From Spiribacter sp. 2438 (GTDB lineage Bacteria > Pseudomonadota > Gammaproteobacteria > Nitrococcales > Nitrococcaceae), in the NCBI RefSeq assembly GCF_009676705.1, contig NZ_CP046046.1, positions 1,364,001-1,428,000 on the forward strand: a stretch of DNA of 64,000 bases, in the 5' to 3' direction. Shown one piece after another: positions 18,791-36,597 of the stretch; positions within the stretch are counted from its first letter, which is position 1, and every line of letters starts with the position of its first letter. The notes beneath the pieces are model-generated. The model did not search any database. It worked only from the letters and a program-made list of their open reading frames with translations, and was not told where the DNA came from. The position numbers were made by a program, and so were the translations under genes.

Positions 18791-21700
18791 CGAGTCGATC
18801 CGCATCCGCGGCGCTCGCCAGAACAATTTGCGCAACCTGGACCTGGACCTGCCCACCGGCGAGCTGATCGTCATTACCGGGGTGTCGGGCTCCGGCAAAT
18901 CGTCCCTGGCCTTCGACACGCTGTATGCCGAGGGACAGCGGCGCTATGTCGAGACTTTTTCACCCTATGCCCGGCAGTTTCTGGACCGCATGGATCGCCC
19001 GGCCACCGACCGGGTGGAGGGCATTCCACCGGCCATTGCCATCGACCAGACCAACCCGGTCCGCACCTCCCGCTCCACGGTGGGCACCATGACCGAGCTC
19101 AACGACCACCTGAAGCTGTTGTTTGCCCGGGCGGCGACGCTGTTCTGTGGCGGCTGTGGCCGCGAAGTGGCCCGGGATACTGCGGATGGCGTCTATCACC
19201 GGCTCATGACCCGCTGCCCGGAGTCCCGGGTGCTAATCGGCTTCGATGTGGATATCCCGGAAAACTACGACGAGGCGGAAATCCGCAGTCTGCTGGATCG
19301 TCAGGGATACACCCGGGTGGAGTCGCTGGACCCCCATCGTCTGCGGGTGATCCAGGACCGGCTGCGGGTGACCCCGGATCGCCGCGACCGGATCGTTGAA
19401 GCCCTGGAGGCCAGCTTTGAGCGCGGCCGGGGCGGGCTGGTGGTGGTGGAGCTGAACGACCAGCGCGAGCCAGTGGCCACCCATCGCTTCTCCACCGACC
19501 TGCACTGCGCCGACTGCGATCGCCATTATCGTGAGCCGACGCCGAGCCTGTTCTCGTTCAACTCACCCATGGGCGCCTGTGAAACCTGCCGCGGTTTCGG
19601 CCGTGTCATGGGCATTGATTATGGCCTGGTGATTCCGGACCCGAAGCGCAGCCTGGCGGAGGGCGCCATCCGCCCGTGGCAGTCCGGCAAGTCCGCCGAG
19701 TGTCAGCAGGACCTGCTGCGGCACGCGCGACGCGCCGGGGTCGCCGTGGACATTCCCTGGCAGGACCTGCCGGAAGCCGATCGTCAGTGGGTGCTGGAGG
19801 GCGAGGGCCGGGGTCGTCAGCGGTGGTATGGCGTGCAGGGATTCTTCGACTGGCTCGAGTCCAAGAGCTACAAGATGCATGTCCGGGTGCTGCTGTCCAA
19901 ATACCGCAGTTACGACCTTTGCCCGGACTGCGAAGGCGCCCGCCTCAAACCCGAGGCATTGCAGTGGCGTCTCGGCGGGCATGCCGAATCCGCCAGGGCG
20001 CGGCCGCCGGCGGACCGCCATCGGCCGCGGGGGGTCACCATGCCGGCGGAGGCCTTCCACGGGCTGCCCGGGCTGTGTCTGCATGACCTCATGACCCTCC
20101 CCCTGCATACCCTCCATCAATTCTTCGAGGAGCTGGCGCTGCCATCGCCGCTGGACGAAGCCGTCCCGGTGCTGCTCCAATCGATTCAGGCCCGGCTGGG
20201 TTTTCTGGATTCCGTCGGCGTGAGTTACCTCACCCTGGATCGTCAGTCACGGACGCTCTCCGGGGGTGAAGTTCAGCGCATCAACCTCACCACCGCCCTG
20301 GGCACATCGCTGGTGAACACCCTGTTCGTGCTGGACGAGCCCAGTATCGGTCTGCATCCGCGGGACATCGGCCGGATCACGGGGGTCATGCAACGATTGC
20401 GCGACGCCGGCAACACGCTGGTGGTGGTGGAACACGACCCGGACATCATGCGAGCGGCGAACCGGATCCTCGACATCGGTCCGGGACCCGGTCGCGATGG
20501 CGGGGCGGTGATCTTTAACGGCGGACCCGCCGAACTGTTGGCGGATGCCAATTCCCTGACCGGCGCCTACCTGCGGGGCGAGAGGCGGGTCGCGGCCCTG
20601 GACCGGGAGGAACGGCCGGCGCCTTCAGAATGGCTGGTCATTCGCGGGGCCCGGGAGCACAACCTGAAAAATATCGACGTGCGGTTGCCGCTGCACCGAC
20701 TGGTCTGCCTGAGCGGCGTCTCCGGCTCGGGTAAATCCACGTTGCTGGAAACCGTGCTCTACCGCGCCCTGCGCAAGCGCCATGGCGAGGCGGTGGATCC
20801 GCCCGGCGATCATGATGGCGTCGACGGCGCTGACACCATCGACGAAGTGGTGCTGGTGGACCAGGCGGCCATCGGCCGAACCACCCGTTCCAACCCCGCC
20901 AGCTACGTCGGGGCTTTTGACGCCATCCGCAAGGCCTTTGCCCGGGAGCCGCTGGCCCGCGAACGGGGCTACACCGCCGGGACGTTCAGCTTCAATGCCG
21001 GGGCCGGACGCTGTCCTGCCTGCGGCGGCAACGGCTTTGAACACGTCGAAATGCAGTTTCTCTCGGATGTCTACCTGCGCTGCCCCAGCTGCGATGGCAA
21101 GCGGTACCGCGACAGCGTCCTCGAGGTCCGCCTGCCCCCGGCGTCCGGTGCCAGCCGTCCTCCGGCCTCCATCGCCGACTGCCTGGCCATGACCGTGGAC
21201 GAGGCCCGCGAATTCATGGCCGATCAACCGGAAGTCCTGCGGGGACTGGAGCCACTGGCGGCGGTGGGCCTGGGCTACCTGCAGTTGGGCCAGCCGGTGC
21301 CCACCCTCTCCGGCGGCGAGGCCCAGCGCCTGAAGCTCGCCGGGCACCTGGCCAAGGCAAGCCGGCGTCGCGGTGGACACAAGCTGTTTCTTTTCGACGA
21401 GCCCACCACCGGTCTTCACTTCGCCGACATCAGCGTCCTGCTGACCGCCTTCGAGCGTCTGCTAGCGGCGGGGCATTCGGTGCTGCTCATTGAGCACAAT
21501 CTGGATGTGATGCTGGCATCGGACTGGCTGGTGGACCTGGGCCCGGAAGGCGGCGACGGTGGCGGCCACCGGGTGGCCGAGGGGCCACCCGGGACGCTGA
21601 TGGAAGTCAGTGGCAGCCATACCGGGGCCGCCCTGAAGCGCTATCGCGCCGAACTGGACGGGCAAGCATCACCCGGGGTGGCCGAACCGGCCCCTCCGGA

Positions 21701-24290
21701 CGCGGCGGTGCGCCGGCCTGACGGCATCGAAATCCATCATGCCCGGGAGCACAACCTGAGGGACATCAACCTGTGCATACCCCGTCAGGGCATGACGGTG
21801 ATTACCGGGCTGTCCGGCTCCGGCAAGAGCACGGTGGCCTTCGATATTCTGTTCAACGAGGGCCAGCGCCGCTATTTGGAGTCCCTGAACGCCTACGCCC
21901 GGCAATTCGTGCAGCCGGCGGCACGCCCCGACATCGATGCCGTGTTCGGCATACCGCCGACGGTGGCCATCGAGCAGCGCACCAGCCGGGGCGGCCGCAA
22001 GAGCACGGTGGCCACCCTCACCGAACTGCATCACTTTCTGCGCCTGCTGTTCGTGAAGCTGGGCACCCAGGTTTGCCCGGACTGTCAGGTGCCCATCAGC
22101 CATCAGGATCAGGACGCGATTGCTGCGCATCTGCTGGAGAACCGCCGGGGCCAACCCATCGAGCTGTTGGCGCCACTGGTGGTGGCCCGCAAGGGGTACT
22201 ACACCGACCTCGCCCAGTGGGCCGCCGGCAAGGGCTTCTCTCACCTTCGAGTGGATGGCGAAGACCAGCCCACGGACAACTGGCCGAGGCTGGATCGATA
22301 CCAGGAACATGATATCGACCTGCCCGTGGCCACCCTGACCCCGGACCCGTCGGCGGAGTCGACGCTCACCGAGGCGCTGGCGCAGGCGTTGGCCTACGGA
22401 CGCGGCCAGATCCGTGTGCAGACCGGCGACGGCGAGACCGCCCTGTTTTCCACCGAGCGGTCCTGCCCCAGCTGCCGCCGCAGCTTCGCGGAACTCGATC
22501 CCCGGCTTTTTTCCTACAACACCCGGCATGGCTGGTGTCCGTCATGCTTTGGCACGGGCACCCGCCTGCCGGGCTTTGATGCCGAGCAGACCGGCGAGGA
22601 AAACCAGTGGCGGGCCGATGACAGCGACGAGCCGCAGACCTGCTCTGCCTGCAATGGCCATCGCCTGCGACCGGAGGCATTGGCCGTACGCTTTGACGGG
22701 CGGGGGATCGCGGATTTTGGCGCCCTGTCCATCGACGAGGCCCGGGCCTTTTTCGAAGCACCCGGGCTGGAAGGCCGGAATGCCGAGATCGCCCGAGATA
22801 TCCTGGCAGAGCTGCGCAGTCGGCTGCAGTTTCTGTCCGCGGTGGGGCTCGGCTATCTGACCCTGGACCGCGCCGCCCCGACCCTGTCCGGCGGCGAAGC
22901 CCAGCGTATCCGGCTGGCAGCCCAACTGGGCTCCAATCTTCAGGGGGTCTGCTACATCCTTGATGAACCCACCATCGGCCTGCACGCCCGGGACAACCGG
23001 CTGTTGCTGGAGACACTCCGGGCACTGGAGCGCAAGGGCAATACCCTGGTGGTGGTGGAGCACGATGAAGAAACCATCCGCCAGGCGGATCACGTCATCG
23101 ACCTGGGGCCCGGCGCCGGTGTCCGCGGCGGACGGGTGGTGGCCGAGGGGCCGCTGCCAAGGCTGCTGGAAGATCCGGACTCCGTGACCGGTCGGGCCCT
23201 GTCCAATCCACTCAAGCACCCGATGCGGGCCGCCCGGCGGGACCCTCATCAGGGTCCGGCGCTGCTGATCAAGGGCGCTCATGCCAACAACCTCCGGCAG
23301 GTTGAGGCGCATATTCCGCTGGGATGCCTGACCGTGGTCAGCGGGGTGTCGGGGTCCGGCAAGAGCACCCTGATCCGGGATGTCCTGCACACCAACCTGC
23401 GGCGCTGGCTAAGTCGTGACGGCGAGCGGCAGCGGGCGGACGGCTGCCGGGGGATCAAGGGATGGGAGTCACTGCAGCGGGTCCTGGAGGTGGACCAGAC
23501 CCCCATCGGCAAAACGCCCCGCTCCTGCCCCGCCACCTATGTCGGCATTTATGACGACATTCGGCGACTGTTCGCGCAGACCGAAGAAGCCCGCATCCGC
23601 GGCTATGGCCCGGGGCGGTTTTCTTTCAACACCCGGGAGGGCCGTTGCCCGGAGTGCGACGGCCAGGGCATGCGGCGCATCGAGATGAACTTCCTGCCGG
23701 ATGTCACCGTGCCCTGCGAGTCCTGTCACGGACAGCGCTTCACGCCGGAAACCCTGGCGGTGCGCTGGCGCGGCCGCTCCATTGGCGAGGTTCTGCAAAT
23801 GGACATCGAATCCGCCGTGGACTTCTTTGCTGCCCATTCGAAAATCCATCACGCTCTCGAGCTGCTACGGGACACCGGACTGGGCTATCTGACACTGGGA
23901 CAGCCCAGTCCGACCCTCTCCGGCGGTGAGGCCCAGCGGATCAAGCTGGTCACCGAGCTCACCAAGGCCAGGCCGTCAGTGGGACGCGTCCCTCAGGGCC
24001 AGACCCTGTACATTCTGGACGAACCCACGGTCGGGCTGCACATGGCGGATGTGGAGCGATTGATCGGCGTGCTCCACCGACTGGTGGACATGGGGCACAG
24101 CGTCGTGGTTATCGAACACGATCTGGATATTCTTGCCGAGGCCGACTGGCTCATCGACCTGGGGCCCGAGGGCGGACAGGCCGGGGGCGCCATCGTCGCC
24201 CAGGGCACCCCGGAACAGGTGGCCCGCAACCGGGACTCCCGCACCGGCGAAATACTCGCTGAATTTCTGAGTGCGCGACAATGCCTTTGA
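18783..24290 (+). CDS. Double-length UvrA-family ATPase (two UvrA units fused in tandem)
   Basis: 1835 aa, about twice normal UvrA. It contains four ABC ATPase modules: P-loops near residues 32 (GVSGSGKSS), 644 (GVSGSGKST), 1008 (GLSGSGKST) and 1520 (GVSGSGKST), each matched by an LSGGE(V/A)QR signature and a DEP(S/T) Walker B. Twelve CxxC pairs, six per half, follow the zinc-site spacing of UvrA. The two halves (about 1-960 and 980-1835) each resemble a complete UvrA, so this is a tandem fusion, not a frameshift. UvrA recognises DNA damage for nucleotide excision repair. Fused paralogues of this kind are known in other bacteria but their role is unclear. A normal uvrA probably exists elsewhere. 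Start ATG at 18783 overlaps tmcA by 8 nt. Confidence 0.92.
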
Positions 24291-26326: not shown

Positions 26327-27343
26327 ATGTCAGCTTCCCCCGCCAGCAGTGCGCAACCCCTGCCCGGTGCCGGTCACCTTCGGCAACGGCTCATGGATCG
26401 CGTGCGCCCGATCGTTATCGGTGTTGCCGGGGACAGCGGCAGCGGCAAGACCACTTACACCGGCGGCATTGAATGGCTGCTGGGTGAATCCCTGGTCAGC
26501 CAGATCAGTCTGGATGGCTATCACCGGGAGGATCGCGCGACCCGGCGGCGCACTGGCAGTTCACCGCTTGACCCGGATCAGAATCGTCTGGATGAGGCCG
26601 CCAGCCATCTCCGGCAACTGATCAACGGAGATCCGGCCCTGGTGCCGGTCTACGACCATGCCACCGGGTGTTTTGCCGAACCGCGGTGGCACCAGCCAAC
26701 CCCGGTGATTCTGGTGGAAGGGCTGCACACCCTGTATCCGCTGATGCGGGATTTACTGGACTTCGCCATCTACGTGGACACCGACGCCACCATTCGGCGT
26801 GACTGGAAAACCACCCGGGACACCCGGGGGCGCGGCTATCGAAGCGAGGACGTCGAAGCGGAGATCCAGCGGCGGGCCACTCAGTACGATGAATGGATCG
26901 CCGGGCAGCAGGACACCGCGGATGTGATTCTGAGAATTCATCCGAGCCGGCTGGAGTCGCTGGCTCTGGGTGAAATGAATCCGGATGAGGGCGGTAGCTG
27001 TCATCACCTCGAGGTCATCGTTCACCCCCAGGCGGACAATCAGCCGGCCCTGTATTTTCCGGTGGATTTGAACAACATGAATCGCGAATCCGCCGTGCCG
27101 TTCATGCTGGCCACCGTCCCCAGCCGGTTTCGGGGCCGGGCGGTCAATGTGCTGCATGTCGACGGCCAGATGCCATCGGCGGCGCTGGCCACCCTGGAGC
27201 AGGAAATCTGCGCCTTTGCCGGCGTGGAAGCGCCCAGCGGTGACGCCTGCGCGTCAGCCGATCCTCAACCCACCATCCGTTTCGCCCAAATGCTGGTGGC
27301 CTGGCCCATTCTCGCTCAGGTGGCGGCGCTGGAATCCGCCTAG
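26327..27343 (+). CDS. Phosphoribulokinase/uridine kinase family protein, class II PRK-like
   Basis: 338 aa from the ATG at 26327, which has AGGA 5 nt upstream; a longer frame from 26243 lacks such a site. P-loop: GVAGDSGSGKTT. It then follows the plant/cyanobacterial/archaeal PRK pattern: LDGYHREDRATRR, SSPLDPDQNRLDEA, PVYDHATGCF and VILVEGLHTLYPLMRDLLDF. The sequence therefore predicts phosphorylation of ribulose 5-phosphate or a related sugar phosphate. No RuBisCO gene is present in this window. Its TAG stop shares CTAG at 27340-27343 with the patatin gene. Substrate assignment is uncertain. Confidence 0.75.
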   Translation: MSASPASSAQPLPGAGHLRQRLMDRVRPIVIGVAGDSGSGKTTYTGGIEWLLGESLVSQISLDGYHREDRATRRRTGSSPLDPDQNRLDEAASHLRQLINGDPALVPVYDHATGCFAEPRWHQPTPVILVEGLHTLYPLMRDLLDFAIYVDTDATIRRDWKTTRDTRGRGYRSEDVEAEIQRRATQYDEWIAGQQDTADVILRIHPSRLESLALGEMNPDEGGSCHHLEVIVHPQADNQPALYFPVDLNNMNRESAVPFMLATVPSRFRGRAVNVLHVDGQMPSAALATLEQEICAFAGVEAPSGDACASADPQPTIRFAQMLVAWPILAQVAALESA

Positions 27344-28311
27344 GCTTTCGGCGAAGCCACGTCTTCGAGAAAACTCTCCAGGGCGGGGCCGAGGCGCTTC
27401 ACCGCCCGCCGGCCCTCATCAATGGCCTCCTCACCCCGATGAAGCTCCATCAGCCCGATGTGCGCCAGACGCGGCGCAATCATGAGATCCGGCGGGTCCC
27501 CCGCCATGCGACTGCGGGTAATGCGGTCCTGCATGACATTCACCGACGTGGCGATGACATCGAAAACCCCCGGCACGGTTTCCGCGGACCCCCGACGGAA
27601 CTGGGCCTGCAACAGATCACTGCCGTTTCGGACGCCATGGGTCAGCCAGCTCAGCCAGCCGGCTGAAGTGACCGGAGCATCCTCTGCGGGCTCCTGAACC
27701 GACTCGGTGTGGTCCGCCGTCGGCACCGGCGGATGGATTCGTCGACCCACCAGTCCACCGCTCAGATTGACCGCGATCACCCGATCCGCGCCCATGGCGT
27801 GACATAGGGAAATTGGCACCGGATTCACCAGTCCACCGTCCACCAGCCACTCCCCGTGGACCTGGATGGGCGTAAAGACCCCGGGCAGCGCCATGGAAGC
27901 GCGCACTGCCGTGGCGACGTCCCCCTGCTGCAGCCATCGCTCCTGACCGCTGTACAGGTCGGTGGCCACCACCCCCAACGGCGTGGCCAGGGCCTCGAAG
28001 CGCAGGTCGCCAAAGGTATTGTGGAAATGCGTGAGCAGCCGACGGCCCTGGATGAAGCCGCCGTCTCCGAGGGCGAAATCCATGTAGCCGACCACGTCCC
28101 GTCGGGTCAGCTCCACCACCCAGCGCTCGAAGGCATCCAGTCGATCACTGCAGAGCATGGCCCCGGCGATGGCCCCCACCGAGGTCCCGGCCACGACATC
28201 GGGCTGAATGCCGGCCTCACGCAGCGCTCGAATAACGCCGATATGGGCCCAGCCTCGGGCCGCGCCACCCCCCAGGGCCAGGCCGATGCGCGGTCCGTTG
28301 GCGCCGGGCAT
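27340..28311 (-). CDS. Patatin-like phospholipase (RssA-type)
   Basis: 323 aa. The patatin domain occupies about 8-205: oxyanion loop GGGAARGWAHIGV, nucleophile GTSVG and the catalytic Asp in DGGLVNPVP. It is closest in form to RssA-like bacterial patatins, serine acyl hydrolases acting on phospholipids. A C-terminal extension of about 110 residues is predicted to be cytoplasmic. No signal peptide is visible. It follows yceI with 2 nt between stop and start, in a unit with the CDP-alcohol phosphatidyltransferase, so a lipid-related role is consistent with the neighbours. Confidence 0.88.
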   Translation of the reverse strand: MPGANGPRIGLALGGGAARGWAHIGVIRALREAGIQPDVVAGTSVGAIAGAMLCSDRLDAFERWVVELTRRDVVGYMDFALGDGGFIQGRRLLTHFHNTFGDLRFEALATPLGVVATDLYSGQERWLQQGDVATAVRASMALPGVFTPIQVHGEWLVDGGLVNPVPISLCHAMGADRVIAVNLSGGLVGRRIHPPVPTADHTESVQEPAEDAPVTSAGWLSWLTHGVRNGSDLLQAQFRRGSAETVPGVFDVIATSVNVMQDRITRSRMAGDPPDLMIAPRLAHIGLMELHRGEEAIDEGRRAVKRLGPALESFLEDVASPKA

Positions 28312-28313
28312 GG

Positions 28314-28922
28314 TCAGCCTTCGTCCAACAGGGCCTCGAACTCGATGATGAGCTCGACCTCGTCCCCCACCAGCTCGTCCTCAAGGGCGTAATCCATGCC
28401 GAAATCACTGCGCATCAAGCTGCCGCTCATGGAGGCACCCAGCGTCTGGGCCCCGCCGATGGGATGAGGGCCAATGCGGTTGATGGTGGCGTCCAGACGA
28501 AGGGGCTGAGTCACGCCCAGAATGGTGATTTCACCGTGCACCACGCCCTGGTCACTGCCGGTGGCCTCGTAGTCGGTGACCTCGAACCGAATCTCCGGGT
28601 GATTGCGAACATCCAGAAAATCACCATCGCGAACATGGCCATCCCGACGATCATGACCGGTAAAGACACTGCCCGCGGTGATGACCGCGGCTCCACTATG
28701 GAGCTCGTTGGCCTCCGCGTCGTAGACGAAACCGCCGCTCACGTCGGTGAACAGACCGACCAGGTTGGCGAACCGGGCGTGGCCGATCTGAAAGGCCACA
28801 CTGACGTGTTCTTCATCAACCACATACCGCTGGGGTTCGGCCAGCACCGGGCTGGCTTTGAGGCCGGCCACCGCGAAAGTGGCGATGACCGCCCCGAGGA
28901 TGAATCGACGCATGACTGTCAT
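28314..28922 (-). CDS. YceI family periplasmic lipid-binding protein
   Basis: 202 aa with a signal peptide (MRRFILGAVIATFAVAGLKA, cleavage near VLAEP). The YceI lipocalin-like domain follows: YVVDEEHVSVAFQIGHARFA, then LDVRNHPEIRFEVT and the C-terminal GMDYAL region. YceI proteins bind polyisoprenoids or other amphiphiles in the periplasm. The ATG at 28922 has AGGAG 7 nt upstream and overlaps the stop of the CDP-alcohol phosphatidyltransferase (ATGA), so the two are co-translated. An isoprenoid-binding protein next to a lipid headgroup transferase supports a lipid-linked product for this region. Confidence 0.9.
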   Translation of the reverse strand: MTVMRRFILGAVIATFAVAGLKASPVLAEPQRYVVDEEHVSVAFQIGHARFANLVGLFTDVSGGFVYDAEANELHSGAAVITAGSVFTGHDRRDGHVRDGDFLDVRNHPEIRFEVTDYEATGSDQGVVHGEITILGVTQPLRLDATINRIGPHPIGGAQTLGASMSGSLMRSDFGMDYALEDELVGDEVELIIEFEALLDEG

Positions 28923-29653
28923 GGGTTTGCTCCTGTCTTTGATAGGGGTCGCGCCAGGGCGAGCAGGTCAACAATGAACGAATAACTCACCAGTGCAACC
29001 AGGGCAGCGGCCAGCGGCTGGGTCGCGGAATGGGGCAGGCCCGGCAGCAGGCAGATCACCAGGCCCACGCCCTGCAGCCCGCAGATCACGCGTCGCCGCT
29101 GGGAAAACGCCAGCGGCCGTTGCAGAGGTGGATGGAACCGACCCGCCATGATGAACAGATACCGCCAGGCACCGATCAAGAGCACCCAGGGGCCGGCGCG
29201 ATCCAGCGAGGCCACCCAGGCCGCCAGTACCAGCAGCGCGAATCCATCCAGTTCCATGTCGAAACGGGCACCGGCTCGGGTTTCGCAACCCAGGCGGCGG
29301 GCCACCAGACCGTCCGCGCCGTCCATGAGCACCGCCACCGCGGCCAGCGAGAAGATCACCGTGGGCTGGGCCAGGAAGAGGGAGGTGTCCGCCAGCAAGC
29401 CCACCAGTATGGCAATGGGGACCGAGCGCGCCAGGGTGACCCGGTCCGCGGCGGTGAGTCGGGTGCCCCGGCCGCGCTGCTGCCATAGCGCCAGACCCAG
29501 CCCGATCTGCGTTACCAGTGCGAGCCCGGGCACCGCCGCGGACAGGGAAAAAAACCCGGTGAGGCCGCCCGCCAGCGCGGCAGTGGCAACGAATGCCGCC
29601 AACCAATCCCTGATCCAGCCAGTGGTTCCCGCGTAGGGCGACTCCGGAACCAA
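28919..29653 (-). CDS. CDP-alcohol phosphatidyltransferase family protein
   Basis: About 244 aa, six or more hydrophobic helices. The family signature is intact: DGADGLVARRLG followed by GARFDMELD, matching D-x2-DG-x2-AR-x8-G-x3-D-x3-D. Such enzymes transfer a phosphoalcohol from CDP to an acceptor (phosphatidylserine, PGP, archaetidyl or inositol-phosphate types); the alcohol here is unknown. I favour a TTG start at 29653 because GGAGG lies 6 nt upstream. An ATG at 29701 is also open but would nearly abut the divergent dehydrogenase gene. Heads a minus-strand unit with yceI and the patatin gene. Confidence 0.85.
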   Translation of the reverse strand: MVPESPYAGTTGWIRDWLAAFVATAALAGGLTGFFSLSAAVPGLALVTQIGLGLALWQQRGRGTRLTAADRVTLARSVPIAILVGLLADTSLFLAQPTVIFSLAAVAVLMDGADGLVARRLGCETRAGARFDMELDGFALLVLAAWVASLDRAGPWVLLIGAWRYLFIMAGRFHPPLQRPLAFSQRRRVICGLQGVGLVICLLPGLPHSATQPLAAALVALVSYSFIVDLLALARPLSKTGANP

Positions 29654-29725
29654 TGCTAACCTCCATGCCTCTGAGCACCAGATCACTGTGAACACGACCA
29701 TGACATGGGAGTTCCCCGGCGGCCA

Positions 29726-30703
29726 ATGAGCACCTCCACCAGCTACGCCTTCTGGATAACCGGTCCCGAACAGGGAGAGATCCGGGAAACGACGCTCCCC
29801 CCGCTGGAATCCGGGACGCTGCAGGTCCGCGCCCTCTACAGCGGGATCAGTCGCGGCACCGAGTCACTGGTCTGGCGCGGCCAGGTGCCAGGCAGCCAGC
29901 ACCTGGCCATGCGGGCACCGTTTCAGGAAGGCGAATTCCCCGCACCGGTGAAGTACGGCTACTGCAATGTGGGCGTGGTGGAAGACGGCCCCGCTGACTG
30001 GATCGGGCAGCGGGTGTTCTGCCTTTACCCGCATCAGACGCGTTACCGGGTACCCATTGAGGCGGTGCATCCGCTGCCGGAGGGTCTTGACCCCGCCAAC
30101 GCGGTCCTGGCGGCCAACACGGAAACGGCCATCAACGCCACCTGGGATGCCGGCCCCATGGTCGGGGAGCGTATCGCGGTCATCGGCGCCGGCGTGGTCG
30201 GTGCCCTGACCGCGGCCCTGTGTACCCGGATCCCCGGTGTGGAGGTACAGCTGGTGGACGTCAATCTGGAGCGCGGCGCGCTGGCGGAAGCGCTTGGAGT
30301 GCCCTTTGCCACGCCGGAAAGCGCACGGGGCGAACTCGACCGGATCATCCACGCCAGTGGCCATGGCGAAGGCCTGCGACTGGCACTTTCACTGGCCGCC
30401 ATGGAAGCCACCGTGGTCGAGCTCAGCTGGTTCGGTAGCCGGGAACCCACGGTCCCCCTTGGCGAGGACTTTCACGCCCGCCGTCTGACGCTGCGCTCCA
30501 GCCAGGTGGGTAGCCTCAATCCGCTCATGCGGCCGCGCTGGGACCACCGCCGTCGTCTGAATCTTGCCCTGCAACTGCTCACCCGCCATCCCGAATGGGC
30601 GGCGCTGGTGGACGCCGAGTCCGACTTCCCGTCGCTGCCCGCCACCATGCCGTCCATTGCTGGCGGGTCCGGTCTTTGCCATCGCATTCGCTATCAGGAG
30701 TGA
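29726..30703 (+). CDS. Zinc-type alcohol dehydrogenase-like oxidoreductase without canonical zinc ligands
   Basis: 325 aa of the MDR superfamily. The N-terminal GroES-like part has [11 protein letters not shown] where zinc enzymes have a Cys-containing metal motif, and the GHE motif is absent. In this respect it resembles BchC-like and other zinc-free MDR proteins. The Rossmann domain starts [16 protein letters not shown]. The C-terminus is short. The ribosome site is poor; the alternative ATG at 29705 is equally weak. It leads a plus-strand operon, ending 2 nt before the PTPS-like gene. The substrate is unknown; the context suggests a pterin-, pyrimidine- or sugar-linked carbonyl. Confidence 0.8.
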
Positions 30704-30705
30704 CC

Positions 30706-31110
30706 ATGTACAGCATTAATGTTCGCGACCATTTCATGATTGCCCACAGCTTTCGCGGCGACACCTTCGGCCCGGCTCAGGCGCTGCACGGAGCCACCTA
30801 CGTCACCGATGCCACTTTTTTCCGGGACAGTCTGGACGCCGACGGGGTCGTCATCGACATCGCAGCGGCCACCGAGACCCTTCGCGCCGTTCTGGCCCGC
30901 TACAACCTGACCAATCTGGATGAACTCACGGAATTCGAAGGGGTGAACACCACCACCGAATACCTGGCGCGACACATCGCCGATGCCCTGGCGGTGGCCA
31001 TCGACAATGGCGACCTGGGTGAGAGCGCACAAACCCTGGATCGGCTGAAAGTCACCCTGCACGAGTCACATGTGGCATCGGCGGCCTATGAGCGGTCGCT
31101 CAAGGGGTGA
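30706..31110 (+). CDS. PTPS/QueD-family protein with altered active site
   Basis: 134 aa, the size of 6-pyruvoyl-/6-carboxy-tetrahydropterin synthases. The T-fold landmarks are present: IAHSF (first zinc His), LHGATY (second), [11 protein letters not shown] (substrate Glu) and [14 protein letters not shown] near the end. The usual CxxxHGH motif reads AQALHGA, so both the catalytic Cys and the third zinc His are absent. It cannot be assumed to do the queuosine or biopterin reaction, and no queC, queE or queF is nearby. CAGGAG precedes the ATG by 5 nt. Its stop overlaps the GTG start of the glycosyltransferase. Confidence 0.85.
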
Positions 31111-32168
31111 GCCCGATCCATTTTCTGGTTCCCGGCTCACTGGGCCGTCCCACCGGCGGTACCCAGTACGACCGGCGGATCATCGAGGGACTCAGGCAAC
31201 GGGGCGAGACGGTTCAGGCTCATGAGCTCGCCGGCGACTACCCCGGGCCCGATTTCGCAGCGGAACAGGCCGCCACCGACTGCCTGTCGGCGCTGCCCGA
31301 TGATGCCTGTGTGGTGGTGGACGGCCTCGCTCTGGGGGGGCTGCCCGACGTGTTCGGCGATCATGCCCGACGCCTCCGGCTGGTCGCCATGGTTCATCAT
31401 CCACTGACGGATGAAACCGGTCTCGACCTGCCCCGGGCCGCGGAGTTGCGGGATCTCGAGCAACGGGCCCTGGCGGTTGTTGGCGGGGTCATTGCCAGCA
31501 GCGCCTTCACCGCCGATCGTCTGGAAAACCTGGGCCTCTACCCAGGCGACATCCATGTCGTGACCCCCGGTTGCACCCCGAGCCGACTGGCCAGTGGGTC
31601 CCCCGACCCGGATACCCCGCCATCGCTGCTGTGCGTGGGATCGCTCATCCCCCGCAAGGGACAGGATGTCCTGATCAGTGCCCTGGGGCGGCTTGCGGAT
31701 CTCCCGTGGCAGTGCACGCTGGCCGGCTCCACCGGCGCCGACGCCGACTGGAACCGACATCTGCAGCAGCTGATCGCCGATGTCGCACTCGCCCATCGCA
31801 TCCACTCACCGGGCGCGCTGTCGCCGTCGGCGCTGGAAGATGCCTATCAGCAGGCGGATCTGTTTATCCTGCCCTCCCGATACGAGGGATATGGCATGGT
31901 CATCACCGAGGCCGTGGCCCGCGGCCTGCCCGTGGTCACCACCGACGGCGGTGCCCTGCCGTCCACCCTGCCACCGGGGGCGGGCCTCACGGTTCCGGTG
32001 GGTGACTCGGCAGCGCTGGCTGCGGCCATTCGCCGGGTGCTGACCGAAGACGAGCTTCGAGCAGCGCTGGAAGCCGGTGCCCGACGGGCCCGCCGGTCAC
32101 TGCAGGATTGGGACGAAGTGGCGCTGGGGTTCCAGCGGGCCTTGAGGAATATCACCCACCATGATTGA
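31107..32168 (+). CDS. Glycosyltransferase family 4 protein
   Basis: 353 aa, GT-B fold. The N-terminal acceptor domain opens [20 protein letters not shown] with the glycine-rich GT4 loop. The donor domain carries [20 protein letters not shown] and the retaining E-x7-E motif in [20 protein letters not shown]. No membrane helix is visible, so it is cytoplasmic or peripheral. Starts with GTG at 31107, overlapping the PTPS-like stop (GTGA), and overlaps the methyltransferase by 8 nt. It probably glycosylates the product or lipid carrier of this cluster; donor and acceptor are unknown. Confidence 0.9.
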
Positions 32169-32973
32169 ACACTTTGCCGCCGACTGGCTGGGGCTGCGAG
32201 AAGCCGCGGATCATGCCAGCCGGGATCCGAATCTCACCGCCCGCCTCGCCGAGTGGTGGGAGGCCGAAGGCGGCTCCCGGGTGGTGGACCTGGGGGCCGG
32301 CGCCGGCAGCAACTGCCGTTATTTGGCGCCACGGCTCGGCGGGACTCAAACCTGGCAACTGGTGGACCACGACCCGGAACTGCTGGCGGTGGCTCGCAGA
32401 CGCACGGCCACCCTCGGCACCGAACAAGGCATCCCGATCTCCACTCGCCGGGCAGACCTGAACACCGAGCTGGCGGACTGCACCGCCGGGGCCCACCTGG
32501 TCACCGCCTCGGCACTGCTGGATCTGGTCAGCGCCCGCTGGCTCGAGACGCTGGCCGGGCAGTGTCAGCGCCAGGGCTGCGCGGTGCTGATCACCATCAG
32601 CTACAACGGTCAGTTCTCTCTCGATCCCCCGCTGGCGGATGATCACTGGATTCGTGAGCAGGTCAATGCCCACCAGCGCGGCGAGAAAACCGTCGGTCGT
32701 GCCCTCGGGCCCGATGCACTGGACTGTGCAGCGCCGCTGTTCGAACAGTTGGGCTTTCAGATCTGGCGCGCTCCCAGCGACTGGCAGCTTTCACCGCGGG
32801 ACGAGCCACTGCAGGCCGCCCTCATAGAGGGTTGGGCGGAAGCCGCCCGGCAGCAGGCGCCGGATGAGGCGGACCGCGTCGATGCCTGGCTGCAACGGCG
32901 GCGACAGGGAGGACCGGCGGAACGACTGCGGGTCGGGCATGAAGATTTTCTGGCCCTGCCGTGTCCCGACTGA
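32161..32973 (+). CDS. Class I SAM-dependent methyltransferase
   Basis: 270 aa. The SAM-binding motif I is VVDLGAGAGSN (about 41-51), the acidic post-I residues lie in LVDHDPE, and a mid-domain SALLDLVS segment follows. Nothing shows the substrate. Overlaps both neighbours (8 nt with the glycosyltransferase, 13 nt with the flippase-like gene), so it is clearly part of the same translationally coupled operon. It is predicted to methylate a small molecule or glycan intermediate in this pathway rather than DNA or protein. Confidence 0.85.
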   Translation: MIEHFAADWLGLREAADHASRDPNLTARLAEWWEAEGGSRVVDLGAGAGSNCRYLAPRLGGTQTWQLVDHDPELLAVARRRTATLGTEQGIPISTRRADLNTELADCTAGAHLVTASALLDLVSARWLETLAGQCQRQGCAVLITISYNGQFSLDPPLADDHWIREQVNAHQRGEKTVGRALGPDALDCAAPLFEQLGFQIWRAPSDWQLSPRDEPLQAALIEGWAEAARQQAPDEADRVDAWLQRRRQGGPAERLRVGHEDFLALPCPD

Positions 32974-33830
32974 TCCGGGTTCTGGTTTCCGCCGTGCTGC
33001 TCGCCCTGGTGGCGAGGCAATTCGGCAGCGATGTACTGGCACAACTGGCCCAGGCGAATCCTGCCTGGTTGGCGCTGGCCATGGGGCTGGGTCTGTTGCA
33101 GGTGGTGGGCTCGGCCTGGCGCTGGCGCTACACGGCAGGCCGGCTCAGCGTACCCCTGCAGATGAGCCGCGCCGTCGGTGAATACTTTCTGGCCACCCTC
33201 ATCAACCAGACCGTACCCGGCGGCGTCATCGGCGATGCTCAGCGTGCCTGGCGTCATGGCCGCGGGCTGCCAAGGCAGGGCCCGGCCTTCCAGGCCGTTG
33301 TGATCGAGCGGCTCTCCGGCCAGATCGCCCTGGGGGGGCTGGCACTCACGGCCTGGTTTGTCAGCTCCGAGGCTCCCGCTGCCCAGCGTCTGCTGGTTGG
33401 TGCTGGCGTGGCCGCCGGACTGCTGCTGATGGTCCGCGGCATTCGCTGGACCCTGAACCACGCCCAGGGTTGGAGGCAGGAGTGGTCGGCGGCGGTGGAG
33501 CGGGGCCTCCTCGCCCGGAGCGTACTCCCCGTCCAGCTGGGCGCCTCCTTTCTGGTGGCGATGAGCTATATCGCCGTCTATATCTGCTGCCTGCTGGCGC
33601 TGGGTGCCGCCGGCTCCCTGCTGACCTGGGGGGCCCTGGTGCCGCTGGTGCTGTTTGCCATGCTGATCCCGTTCAGCGTGGCCGGGTGGGGACTGCGGGA
33701 AGGCGCGGCCGCTCTGCTGTGGCCCCTCGCCGGCCTGCCGGCCCATGAGGGCGTCGCCGCGGCGGTGCTCTACGGGGTGATCGCGCTGCTCAGCGGCGTG
33801 CCGGGGCTCATGGTGCTGGCGAAACGCTGA
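32961..33830 (+). CDS. Flippase-like membrane protein (LPG synthase transmembrane / UPF0104 family)
   Basis: 289 aa, GTG start at 32961. About seven or eight hydrophobic helices, with the family motifs GEYFLATLINQTVPGGVIGD and FSVAGWGLREGAAALLWPLAG. The family is the membrane part of MprF-type lysyl-phosphatidylglycerol synthases, present here without the aminoacyl-transferase domain. Stand-alone members accompany glycolipid or hopanoid pathways and may flip lipids. It ends the plus-strand operon and overlaps the convergent RibD-like gene by 23 nt. Confidence 0.87.
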   Translation: MSRLIRVLVSAVLLALVARQFGSDVLAQLAQANPAWLALAMGLGLLQVVGSAWRWRYTAGRLSVPLQMSRAVGEYFLATLINQTVPGGVIGDAQRAWRHGRGLPRQGPAFQAVVIERLSGQIALGGLALTAWFVSSEAPAAQRLLVGAGVAAGLLLMVRGIRWTLNHAQGWRQEWSAAVERGLLARSVLPVQLGASFLVAMSYIAVYICCLLALGAAGSLLTWGALVPLVLFAMLIPFSVAGWGLREGAAALLWPLAGLPAHEGVAAAVLYGVIALLSGVPGLMVLAKR

Positions 33831-34611
33831 AATCCAGCCGGAACAGTCGGTCCTCGCCAAGATCGAACTGCTGAACCACCGGTCGCCAGGCCTCATCCAT
33901 GTGGTCGATGGCGGGCAACTGGATGCCCGTGGGGCCCGAGCCGATCAGAACCGGTGCCACGGTCACGTAGAGCACATCCACCAGGCGATGCGCGATCCAG
34001 GCGGACACCGTCCGCGCCCCTCCTTCCACCAGAATACGCTGTACGCCGGTTGCGGCCAGGGCATCCCGAACCGTTGACGGGCTAGCCGGATCGGCCACGA
34101 ACTGCCGGTCTGCCGGGAGCGTTTGACGGCGGCCCGCACTGACCAGCCAGGTCGGCGCGGCCCGGTCGGTGAAGATGGACCGGTCCGCTGGCAAGCCGTC
34201 ACGGTCCAGGAGAACCGCGCGGGCCGGGTTACGCCCTGCCACGGCCCTGACCGTCAGCTGCGGGTCGTCTTTAGCGACGGTGCCGGCGCCCACCACCACG
34301 ACATCCACCAGGGCGCGCAGCCGATGCAGATGGGTTCGGTCAGCCGGACCCGTGACGTAATGGGAGTGACCCGTGGGTGTGGCAATACGGCCATCCAGGC
34401 TCTGGCCCAGCTGGGCCACCACCAGCGGCCGTTGCTCCCGCGGCTCCAGCAACGGGCGGTAGCGTTGCCGCAGAACCTGAGCCGCCTCCCGGTGCCCGAG
34501 ACCCGACAGGTCTGGTGGAGTTGCGGTGTCGTCGTCCGGGCTTTTGCCGTGGTGACCTCCGCACTGGCGCAGCAGGTCGATCCAGACTGATTGCAGTGTC
34601 TCCGCCCCCAT
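33808..34611 (-). CDS. RibD C-terminal (pyrimidine reductase / DHFR-like) family protein
   Basis: 267 aa. After an N-terminal extension of about 55 residues, the reductase domain begins LVVAQLGQSLDGRIATPTG and continues with DVVVVGAGTVAKDDPQLTVR and ILVEGGARTVSAWI, typical RibD_C NADPH-binding motifs. The deaminase half of RibD is absent. In riboflavin synthesis this domain reduces the ribosyl side chain made by GTP cyclohydrolase II. That enzyme's gene is divergent from this one, 82 bp away, which supports a shared pathway. AGAGG lies 7 nt before the ATG. The function of the N-terminal extension is unknown. Confidence 0.88.
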   Translation of the reverse strand: MGAETLQSVWIDLLRQCGGHHGKSPDDDTATPPDLSGLGHREAAQVLRQRYRPLLEPREQRPLVVAQLGQSLDGRIATPTGHSHYVTGPADRTHLHRLRALVDVVVVGAGTVAKDDPQLTVRAVAGRNPARAVLLDRDGLPADRSIFTDRAAPTWLVSAGRRQTLPADRQFVADPASPSTVRDALAATGVQRILVEGGARTVSAWIAHRLVDVLYVTVAPVLIGSGPTGIQLPAIDHMDEAWRPVVQQFDLGEDRLFRLDFSVSPAP

Positions 34612-34693
34612 GGGAACGCCTCTGTCGCTTCATCACGGAATTGTTACAGGTTAGTCTGGTCTATTCATGCACGCTTATGCGAAGGGAGTCACT

Positions 34694-35809
34694 ATGCAGC
34701 GCATCCGGCGCGCACTGATTGACCTGAGGCGCGGAGAACCGGTGAGAGTCACCGGCGCCGACAACGATCACCGCCTCATCATCGCCATGGAAAACCTGGA
34801 CCGGGCCCGGCTGGCCGCCATGACGGCATTCACTGATGATATGCCCCGCCTGGTGATGACCCACCACCGGGCCCAGGCCATGGGGTTGGCCTGGCAAAGT
34901 GCGGCTGCACTGTCCATCCCGCTTCGAAAGAACGGCGCGCCACCGAACCTGGAAGCGGTGGTTGGTGTGATGAAGGACCCGGGCAAAGGCAAGCCCCCCG
35001 AACCCGGCACCCCGGCCGAGACCGCCGCCATCGACATGGCCCGCCACGCAGGCCTGCTGCCGGCGCTGCTGGTTGTGGATCCCCTGCCCGATGCCGGGGA
35101 TCTGGAAGCGCGGGTGGCTAACGATGAAATCCTCTCGGTCAGCGTCCGCGAGATCGAGGCATTCACCACCGGGCGAGGCAATGCACCGGAGCGAATCAGC
35201 GAGGCTCAGGTTCCACTGGAGGGCGCGGAGACATCAAGGTTCATCCTCTATCGCGAGCCCGACGGATTGCTCGAGCACATCGCGGTGTTGATCGGCGAGC
35301 CGGAGGACTGGCCCAGCCCGCCGGGACTTCGTCTCCACTCCGCCTGCCTGACCGGCGACCTGTTTGGCTCCCTGCGCTGCGACTGTGGCGAACAGCTGCG
35401 CCAGGCGGCGTCCACGCTGGCCGCCGAAGGCGGTGGGGTGCTGCTCTATCTGGCCCAGGAAGGCCGGGGCATCGGCCTGGCCAACAAGCTGCGGGCCTAT
35501 GGGCTGCAGGACACCGGCATGGACACGGTGGACGCAGACCAGCTGCTCGGATTCGGGGAAGACGAGCGCCGCTACGAGATCGCCGCGGCCATGCTGAAAG
35601 ACCTGGGTGTCGCCAGCGTCCGCCTCATGACCAATAATCCCGCCAAGGTCTCGGCGCTGGAGGCGTCGGGCATCGAGATTGCAGGTCGGGAAGCGATCCA
35701 TGGACAACTCAATAGTCACAACGCCCGCTATCTCACCGCCAAGGCAGAACGCTCCGGGCACTGGTTGCAGGAATTGCTGACCGAAAGTCGGCCGGAAGAT
35801 CAGGCCTGA
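34694..35809 (+). CDS. RibBA-like protein: degenerate RibB domain plus GTP cyclohydrolase II
   Basis: 371 aa from the ATG at 34694 (GGAG 5 nt upstream). Residues 1 to about 195 align loosely with the DHBP synthase fold, but its acidic catalytic loop (usually DDEDRENEGD) reads GADNDHRLIIAM, so that activity is probably lost. The C-terminal half is an intact GTP cyclohydrolase II: zinc site CLTGDLFGSLRCDCG, QEGRGIGLANKLRAYGLQD, DERRYEIAAAML and LMTNNPAK. It should convert GTP to the diaminopyrimidinone phosphate that RibD-type reductases use. No ribE, ribH or ribD deaminase is in the window, so it is probably a pathway-specific paralogue. Confidence 0.88.
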   Translation: MQRIRRALIDLRRGEPVRVTGADNDHRLIIAMENLDRARLAAMTAFTDDMPRLVMTHHRAQAMGLAWQSAAALSIPLRKNGAPPNLEAVVGVMKDPGKGKPPEPGTPAETAAIDMARHAGLLPALLVVDPLPDAGDLEARVANDEILSVSVREIEAFTTGRGNAPERISEAQVPLEGAETSRFILYREPDGLLEHIAVLIGEPEDWPSPPGLRLHSACLTGDLFGSLRCDCGEQLRQAASTLAAEGGGVLLYLAQEGRGIGLANKLRAYGLQDTGMDTVDADQLLGFGEDERRYEIAAAMLKDLGVASVRLMTNNPAKVSALEASGIEIAGREAIHGQLNSHNARYLTAKAERSGHWLQELLTESRPEDQA

Positions 35810-35811
35810 TC
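35798..35811. repeat. 14-bp perfect palindrome across two convergent stop codons
   Basis: GATCAGGCCTGATC holds the TGA of the GTP cyclohydrolase gene (35807-35809) and the TGA of the creatininase gene (35802-35800). No U-tract follows on either strand. Confidence 0.6.
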
Positions 35812-36597
35812 AAAGGTTGATAACGGGAACTTCGCGGTTTCTGCAATGATGCCGGCGAGGGTATCCGCGTAGTGAAGAAGCAGTTTTTCACCGGCCTCCG
35901 GGTTCGCCAGTCGTGCGTCACCGGTAATCCCCCCCGGATGCAGATCCTCGGCCAGCCAGGCAAACCGGGCGGCTCGGGTTTCCGCGCCGAGCCACCGAAA
36001 ATCCGCCAGCGCCTCGAACTCAATGGACGGCCGGTGAGAGAGCTGATGACGGTTGACCCGATCCGGGGCCAGATGAAGCATCAGGGCGGTTTCCAGCGCA
36101 CCGCCATGCAACCCCTCCTGCCACTCGCGCTCCGGAAACATTGCGGGAATGGCCGGAAAATCAAAATGGCAGGTTTTCACCACCAGCATGCCCTCACGGG
36201 CCCGCAGATCCAGCGCCGCGGTGTCCATGGCCGCCAGATTGCCACCATGGCTGGTGTACATCACCAGCCGGCGGGCACCGGCACGACTCACCGACTGACC
36301 GATTTCCCTTAGCACGGCCTCAAAGGTGGCCGACGAAAGACTGAGCGTGCCGGCATGGTTGACATGCTCGGTGCTCTCGCCAATGGCCACCGTGGGCAGG
36401 CGCAGGCAGGTAACCTCGGCGGGCAGCCGGTTCAGGGCGGCTTCGACGACTCCGTCGGCGATGATCTGGTCCGTGGCCAGAGGCAGGTGATCCCCGTGCT
36501 GCTCCACCGCCGCCAACGGCAGGAGCGCCACCGCGTTCTCATCCAGACAATGGCGGAGCCCGTCGCGGGTATGACCGGCCCAGCCCCTCTGTTCCAT
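35800..36597 (-). CDS. Creatininase-family amidohydrolase
   Basis: 265 aa. Family metal ligands are visible: Glu and His in AAVEQHGDHLPL, Asp in ATDQIIAD, His in SHGGN and Glu in HGGALETALM. The family includes creatininase, mycofactocin MftE and archaeal ArfB, which deformylates a pyrimidine made by a GTP cyclohydrolase. ArfB gives a chemical precedent for acting downstream of the adjacent GTP cyclohydrolase II. I chose the ATG at 36597, 7 nt after GGAGG. Its start overlaps the uracil-DNA-glycosylase-like stop as TGATG. A longer frame to 36699 lies inside that gene. Confidence 0.85.
   Translation of the reverse strand: MEQRGWAGHTRDGLRHCLDENAVALLPLAAVEQHGDHLPLATDQIIADGVVEAALNRLPAEVTCLRLPTVAIGESTEHVNHAGTLSLSSATFEAVLREIGQSVSRAGARRLVMYTSHGGNLAAMDTAALDLRAREGMLVVKTCHFDFPAIPAMFPEREWQEGLHGGALETALMLHLAPDRVNRHQLSHRPSIEFEALADFRWLGAETRAARFAWLAEDLHPGGITGDARLANPEAGEKLLLHYADTLAGIIAETAKFPLSTFDQA

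Follow-up and report, generated by a model that had tools for sequence, protein, structure and literature searches.

In this study, we describe nine linked genes at positions 28919-36597 of a 64,000-nt window, that is, the whole stretch of DNA analysed, which spans positions 1364001-1428000 of the 1.90-Mb single-contig genome of Spiribacter sp. 2438 and has ~66% G+C. It is well supported that these genes form a dedicated GTP-consuming pathway, apparently one that has not been described before. They encode a GTP cyclohydrolase II (GCH2), a RibD-type reductase (RED), a creatininase-family amidohydrolase (CRE), a homolog of 6-pyruvoyltetrahydropterin synthase and QueD (PTPS), an MDR-fold oxidoreductase (MDR), a GT4 glycosyltransferase (GT4), a class I S-adenosylmethionine-dependent methyltransferase (MT), a flippase-like LPG_synthase_TM (UPF0104) protein (FLP), and a CDP-alcohol phosphatidyltransferase (CDP-alcohol PT). 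All nine families had been named in an original prediction made on this DNA, and Pfam and NCBIfam profile searches recovered each of them. The product is probably altered by a redox step and by the transfer of methyl and glycosyl groups, and its probable destination is the membrane. We favor, with a probability of about one half, a reading in which the pathway converts GTP to a modified 2-aminopyrimidinone or pterin-type compound (hereafter X) that is mounted on a lipid for the cell envelope and then passed on. No description of the gene set, of the corresponding SCO locus tags, or of pterin lipids was found in the literature searched, which was mainly open-access. Nine linked genes with a probable tenth, recurring in four phyla and having no known product, represent a sizeable gap in bacterial metabolism.

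Recurrence of the gene set and its separation from known GTP-derived pathways

Among the 59 related genomes searched, PTPS gave 23 strong matches (E ≤ 1.3e-39, taken as PTPS-positive) and weak ones in only five more genomes (E 3.4e-8 to 3.9e-6), and MDR was present in 23/23 PTPS-positive relatives and in 0/36 of the others (Fisher 7e-17). These counts are not independent because 13 of the 23 cluster-positive relatives belong to one genus. The order and orientation of all nine genes were kept in 14 of the 18 relatives' stretches that were read, and some of the remaining four are interrupted by stretch or contig ends. The MDR matches in five of the 23 relatives (G004, G016, G026, G037, and G051) were reported with one internal stop, which could be the gene's own end.

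At least 577 PTPS relatives turned up when GTDB genome contigs were scanned, and the best 80 of these come from Actinomycetota, Alpha-, Beta-, and Gammaproteobacteria, Gemmatimonadota, and Acidobacteriota. Searched by tblastn, these 80 loci contain MDR (80), GT4 (80), MT (79), CDP-alcohol PT (65), RED (61), FLP (54), GCH2 (48), and CRE (41). Further matches were hand-chosen (120 loci fetched), and after eight duplicates with identical last 150 GT4 residues were dropped from 219 loci picked by PTPS, 211 distinct loci remained in Actinomycetota, Pseudomonadota, Gemmatimonadota, and Acidobacteriota. They hold MDR in 210, GT4 in 210, MT in at least 183, CDP-alcohol PT in at least 173, FLP in at least 169, RED in at least 148, GCH2 in at least 141, and CRE in at least 105, all of which are lower bounds based on open reading frames (ORFs; MT is found in fewer of the best 80 loci in this way than by tblastn) and bounded by 20-kb stretches and contig ends; the PTPS count is complete by construction because every locus was chosen via PTPS. 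Counted at E ≤ 1e-25, with every draw including its own centre genome, PTPS occurs in 27/398 Pseudomonadota, 9/296 Actinomycetota, and 6/101 Gemmatimonadota genomes, and, in single families, in 22/121 genomes for that of a Streptomyces, 78/150 for that of a Saccharothrix, and 63/101 for that of a Micromonospora. The gene order is altered in part of the Actinomycetota (e.g., L053 and L063), and the linkage has therefore outlived rearrangement. Streptomyces loci hold most of the set, with creatininase and GCH II genes among them. The cluster or parts of it were also seen on large plasmids of Methylosinus, Agrobacterium, Streptomyces, and Thiodictyon (L284, L285, L286, and L287), the Thiodictyon copy adjoining a transposase gene.

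The original prediction had staked itself on such co-localization and on a second ribA or ribBA in this genome, and on both counts it holds: the same set stands in several phyla, and the genome has a ribA of its own, apart from ribD, ribE, ribB with a weak RibA half, and ribH, which lie together elsewhere (L050, L049). For each of these riboflavin genes, one or more NCBIfam models gave a score above the cut-off, and GCH2 is the third gene of the genome with a GCH II domain. The cluster shares the enzyme families of the first two steps with the riboflavin pathway (RibA, RibD), and probably the earliest intermediates as well; of that pathway, profile searches detected only GTP_cyclohydro2 and RibD_C in it, and no RibB, RibE, RibH, or deaminase. 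A riboflavin duty of GCH2 was rejected in view of the complete set with its own ribA. The toxoflavin cluster likewise shares GCH II and RibD-type enzymes and is not known to have a PTPS.

The prediction that queuosine and biopterin synthesis do not account for the set is borne out by the residues of PTPS. This protein belongs to PF01242 and was correctly called a PTPS/QueD homolog, but it is unlikely to be a working QueD or PTPS. Aligned with two QueD-type homologs from relatives (L027 and L031), it retains the ring-anchoring Glu, the first His, and one of the two His residues in the HxH zinc motif, whereas the catalytic Cys column holds Ala (A24), the second His of HxH is Ala (A30), and the Asp-His pair has become Asn and Leu or Tyr; A24, A30, and N67 are invariant in 18 PTPS sequences. 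The roles of the zinc His, catalytic Cys, Asp-His, and ring-anchoring Glu are taken to be those usual for PTPS/QueD enzymes. The losses are family-wide, with HGAT found in at least 95% of the 211 PTPS proteins. The nearest solved structure is SCO6650 of Streptomyces coelicolor (3d7j, E 1.9e-46, residues 1-132 aligned), which reportedly lacks zinc, the catalytic triad, and PTPS activity. Since the catalytic residues are gone, a queuosine or biopterin duty of PTPS was rejected. In 13 of 18 plasmid records with a PTPS relative, the protein is labelled 6-carboxytetrahydropterin synthase, and the pathway proposed here would correct records that name PTPS of the SCO6650 type in this manner.

Early enzymes, lipid-type genes, and a probable tenth component

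GCH2 has both the domain, above its cut-off, and the Cys zinc motif expected of a GTP cyclohydrolase II. It had been predicted to be RibBA-like; the GCH II part of that claim stands, and the RibB part probably does not. Its N-terminal region aligns partially with RibBA-type models, yet Pfam detected no RibB domain there, and DDEDRENEGDL, whose role in RibB we presume and which is present in the genome's own RibB, is missing. This region is probably a degenerate RibB, and a working RibBA is improbable. In RED the reductase domain stands alone, no deaminase domain being detected, and its closest solved relative (6p8c, E 1.6e-20) is a 2,5-diamino-6-ribosylamino-4(3H)-pyrimidinone 5'-phosphate reductase.

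The S. coelicolor counterpart SCO6655 reportedly goes no further than the formylated pyrimidine, owing to a Met in place of the usual Tyr. The Streptomyces loci share most of the set, and the window PTPS matches SCO6650; unlike SCO6655, the window GCH2 has an extra N-terminal region and the Tyr (Tyr269, aligned with E. coli Tyr105 in 2bz0). Among the 141 GCH2s, 86 have Tyr and 55 do not (27 Met, 26 His, 1 Gln, and 1 Ser), and a creatininase gene lies in the locus for 54/55 of the non-Tyr against 37/86 of the Tyr enzymes (Fisher 4.5e-13); within Actinomycetota the figures are 54/55 and 0/44. The sole non-Tyr case with no creatininase in the locus is a degenerate-looking GCH II of Pseudonocardia bannensis with Ser at the Tyr position (L101:13791-15512).

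The solved relatives of CRE are creatininases. By analogy, CRE is a candidate deformylase of 2-amino-5-formylamino-6-ribosylaminopyrimidinone 5'-phosphate, the reaction of the archaeal ArfB type and of BrbF of Sinorhizobium meliloti, a creatininase-family protein that deformylates the same intermediate; two remoter homologs failed to complement the mutant in that study (PMC9478397). BrbF serves riboflavin, and CRE is placed with it by membership of PF02633. Another study lists SCO6655 among genes whose expression opposes the flux predicted by modelling; expression of most genes on that list increased in stationary phase (PMC2853524).

MDR scores 43 bits against the BchC model TIGR01202, far under its cut-off of 291.25 bits, and a fold search with it returned the general MDR fold alone.

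With regard to the lipid-type genes, the window CDP-alcohol PT carries DGLVARRLGCETRAGARFDMELD, which fits the motif DG(x2)AR(x8-9)G(x3)D(x3)D, and this motif is intact in 173/173 of the CDP-alcohol PTs. In its AlphaFold2 model (mean pLDDT 86.6), the nearest solved fold is that of PgsA, the phosphatidylglycerophosphate (PGP) synthase (Z 14.7, 166 residues, 2.8 Å), followed by phosphatidylinositol-phosphate (PIP) synthases (Z 10-11.5); in VIA-align all rows above Z 8.6 belong to the CDP-alcohol PT family, and designed helical proteins come after. PgsA and PIP synthases act on phosphorylated acceptors; a ribityl-phosphate would be one, so that such an activity would suit the proposed route. The protein is like these enzymes in fold and catalytic motif and unlike them in falling short of the pgsA model TIGR00560 (23.3 bits, cut-off 109.1), and is thus not a PgsA equivalog. 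FLP passes the cut-off of its own family. By phylum, CDP-alcohol PT and FLP are found in 57/76 and 42/76 Pseudomonadota loci and in 109/127 and 122/127 Actinomycetota loci.

A sulfatase-superfamily membrane protein is a probable tenth component of the pathway. On the Agrobacterium plasmid, a gene annotated as 'sulfatase' adjoins the flippase-like gene, and homologs occur in 77/211 loci of four phyla, in 70 of the 77 within about 1.5 kb of a cluster gene (distances are approximate, as ORF ends were naive). In the genome of the window the gene is unlinked (C1:1042024-1043583; L288:5974-7602); its product matches PF00884 (27.5 bits, cut-off 25) and no NCBIfam family. The protein was found in 23/23 cluster-positive and 2/36 cluster-negative relatives (Fisher 2e-14), the latter being G007 (74% complete) and G043, and three of the 25 matches in relatives contain one stop codon. 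In a wider hand-picked set it was found in 29/40 cluster-positive and 1/40 cluster-negative genomes (Fisher 2e-11), where the negatives are the first unmatched genomes of the prevalence draws and at most 18 candidates were scored per genome, with misses possible. MdoH, a periplasmic-glucan glucosyltransferase, is encoded in 26/211 loci (22 Pseudomonadota and 4 Gemmatimonadota), in 23 of them within 1.5 kb. OpgB, LtaS, and EptA, which we take to be sulfatase-superfamily envelope phosphotransferases, compare with the co-inherited protein in its PF00884 domain and in the MdoH genes of these loci; they differ from it in that it matches no NCBIfam family and is unlinked in the genome of the window. 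In that genome its ORF has 4 nt in common with the ORF of a calcium-type P-type ATPase and lies near Mrp-type antiporter genes.

The proposed pathway and its alternatives

All parts of the pathway belong to known families, and its entry would follow the riboflavin route; we infer every chemical step and the order of the steps. GCH2 would open the guanine ring of GTP, CRE would remove the formyl group where GCH2 leaves it, and RED would convert the ribosyl to a ribityl-phosphate side chain; with no deaminase accompanying RED, the 2-amino group would be left in place. PTPS, the SCO6650-type T-fold protein, may use its conserved Glu to hold the ring while another reaction takes place on it, MDR may carry out a redox step, and MT and GT4 would methylate and glycosylate the ring compound. 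CDP-alcohol PT would then join the ribityl-phosphate, or another hydroxyl, to CDP-diacylglycerol, FLP would move the lipid outward, and the sulfatase-superfamily protein would either hydrolyse the lipid or transfer phospho-X to an envelope acceptor. Lipid attachment and flipping are made more likely by the intact motif of CDP-alcohol PT, its PgsA-like fold, and the co-occurring sulfatase-superfamily protein; a phospholipid head group and its handover by the latter protein are suggested by the company that the genes keep. Quite tentatively, the product may be a new class of envelope phospholipid, a GTP-derived, methylated and glycosylated pterin or pyrimidine ribityl-phosphate on diacylglycerol that is flipped and from which a dedicated sulfatase-superfamily enzyme transfers phospho-X. 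The recipients would be periplasmic glucans where Pseudomonadota and Gemmatimonadota loci are linked to MdoH, and other polymers of the cell wall in Actinomycetota. If true, this would be a new kind of lipid, and the pathway might bring to light a membrane lipid, or a decoration of the envelope, that derives from a purine. It might also account for SCO6650 and SCO6655, two proteins that were reportedly studied years ago with no role being assigned.

Several observations weigh against this reading. No cluster gene has an obvious ring-closure role, and clustering of the unassigned ORFs in the cluster loci found neither a ring-closing gene nor another gene conserved beyond the set, although it yielded mainly antisense frames and genus synteny and missed the sulfatase gene. 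CDP-alcohol PT was unseen in 38, FLP in 42, and GCH2 in 70 of the 211 loci, partly because of contig ends, and the sulfatase-superfamily protein was not found in 11/40 cluster genomes of the wider set and was found in 1/40 without the cluster. Phosphatidylserine synthase (PSS) also matches the CDP-alcohol PT model (Z 10.3), Foldseek returned no match at E ≤ 0.001 (PGP synthase came first, at E 1.4e-3), and a profile search places choline phosphotransferase and PSS first, not PgsA. On a plasmid of Streptomyces anthocyanicus, a PTPS gene of the SCO6650 type (L283:9001-9426) stands by itself next to MEKHLA and cupin genes, with no other cluster gene among those listed in the 18.4-kb stretch, which weakens the link a little. 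To our knowledge, no function has been established for the cluster in Streptomyces, nor do we know of any product, substrate, or mutant.

The Tyr of the window GCH2 goes with self-deformylation, and the creatininase should therefore be redundant here. Tyr and creatininase are combined in 35/39 Pseudomonadota GCH2s, the window included, and in 2/3 of those from Gemmatimonadota, a misfit with the simple rule that a non-Tyr enzyme needs a separate deformylase. On the MDR tree, the association of Tyr and creatininase comes down to one supported independent pair (five on all branches) and therefore rests on few events. A second switch in the Pseudomonadota GCH2s might account for a creatininase being retained next to a Tyr-type enzyme. 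A search for one gave no clear candidate: positions 226 and 256 differ from most of 27 comparison enzymes, but at each position 6/27 have the residue found in the window GCH2, and the comparison enzymes are best matches and L001, some perhaps other than housekeeping.

It is possible, though we hold it distinctly less probable than a lipid-mounted X, that the product is a soluble glycosylated and methylated pterin or pyrimidine, such as a cofactor, pigment, or secreted metabolite, and that CDP-alcohol PT and FLP take part in export or in lipid metabolism of another kind. MDR, GT4, and MT are the genes most constantly present, the lipid-type genes were unseen in about a fifth of the loci, and FLP was seen in only 42/76 Pseudomonadota loci; glycosylated pterins are known in cyanobacteria and green sulphur bacteria. 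Known pterin glycosides, however, begin with GTP cyclohydrolase I and not II, and both lipid-type genes recur in the two main phyla, accompanied by genes for sulfatase-superfamily and YceI proteins. A pterin- or flavin-like group that is anchored to lipid and works as a membrane redox cofactor with cytochrome b561 and YceI-type proteins appears improbable. Cytochrome b561 genes occur in 12/211 loci and YceI genes in 32/211, the latter all in Pseudomonadota and all within 1.5 kb of a cluster gene; a cytochrome b gene accompanies the Agrobacterium and Thiodictyon plasmid copies, and the cluster itself has two redox enzymes. Yet neither b561 nor YceI was seen in the Actinomycetota loci with single queries, and only one locus has both.

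A second supply line for riboflavin or flavins, as proposed for branches with RibBA and BrbF in Sinorhizobium, would suit the origin of GCH2, RED, and CRE in families of the early riboflavin route. We consider it very unlikely, given that the later riboflavin enzymes are undetected in the cluster and complete elsewhere and that GT4, MT, CDP-alcohol PT, PTPS, and MDR have no role in riboflavin synthesis. Single genes can be absent from the set, as they would be in a chance neighborhood of unrelated genes, but the same set is found in four phyla and MDR and PTPS co-occur in relatives, so that chance was rejected as practically negligible. The preferred reading, a dedicated pathway toward a lipid-mounted X, keeps the non-riboflavin duty and the co-localization in several phyla that had been predicted.

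Gene layout and neighboring genes

Four genes overlap in turn (PTPS/GT4 by 4 nt, GT4/MT by 8 nt, and MT/FLP by 13 nt), and not five as had been counted, since MDR and PTPS are separated by a 2-nt gap. The converging overlaps of FLP with RED (23 nt) and of GCH2 with CRE (10 nt) were read from the sequence as predicted. The YceI and CDP-alcohol PT genes share 4 nt, and GCH2 has a further in-frame ATG at 34667.

Table 1. Cluster genes and the accessory YceI gene, with positions in the window
Feature	Position	Strand	Evidence
YceI-family protein (PF04264), accessory	28314..28922	-	Pfam 123.9 bits
CDP-alcohol phosphatidyltransferase (CDP-alcohol PT)	28919..29701	-	PF01066, E 4.5e-10
MDR-fold oxidoreductase (MDR), weakly BchC-like, core gene	29726..30703	+	bchC model 43 bits
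PTPS/QueD homolog (PTPS), SCO6650 type, core gene	30706..31110	+	PF01242, 81.3 bits
GT4 glycosyltransferase (GT4), core gene	31107..32168	+	PF00534, 114 bits
Class I SAM-dependent methyltransferase (MT), core gene	32161..32973	+	PF13649, 31.6 bits, cut-off 27
Flippase-like LPG_synthase_TM (UPF0104) protein (FLP)	32961..33830	+	PF03706, 123.4 bits, cut-off 33.4
RibD-type reductase (RED), RibD_C	33808..34611	-	PF01872, 125.4 bits, only domain detected
GTP cyclohydrolase II (GCH2)	34694..35809	+	PF00925, 187.7 bits, cut-off 23.3, residues 167-332
Creatininase-family amidohydrolase (CRE)	35800..36597	-	PF02633, 201.9 bits

A patatin-like phospholipase gene (window 27340-28311) follows the YceI gene and was seen in 8/8 same-genus loci read. 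In ten Actinomycetota loci, an amidohydrolase-like ORF lies ~2 kb from PTPS (L053, L063, L065, L066, L070, L072, L073, L081, L085, and L104). Elsewhere in the window, at 18783-24290, a single 1835-aa ORF has two successive UvrA-like halves and, from its translation, appears to encode a double-length UvrA-type protein.

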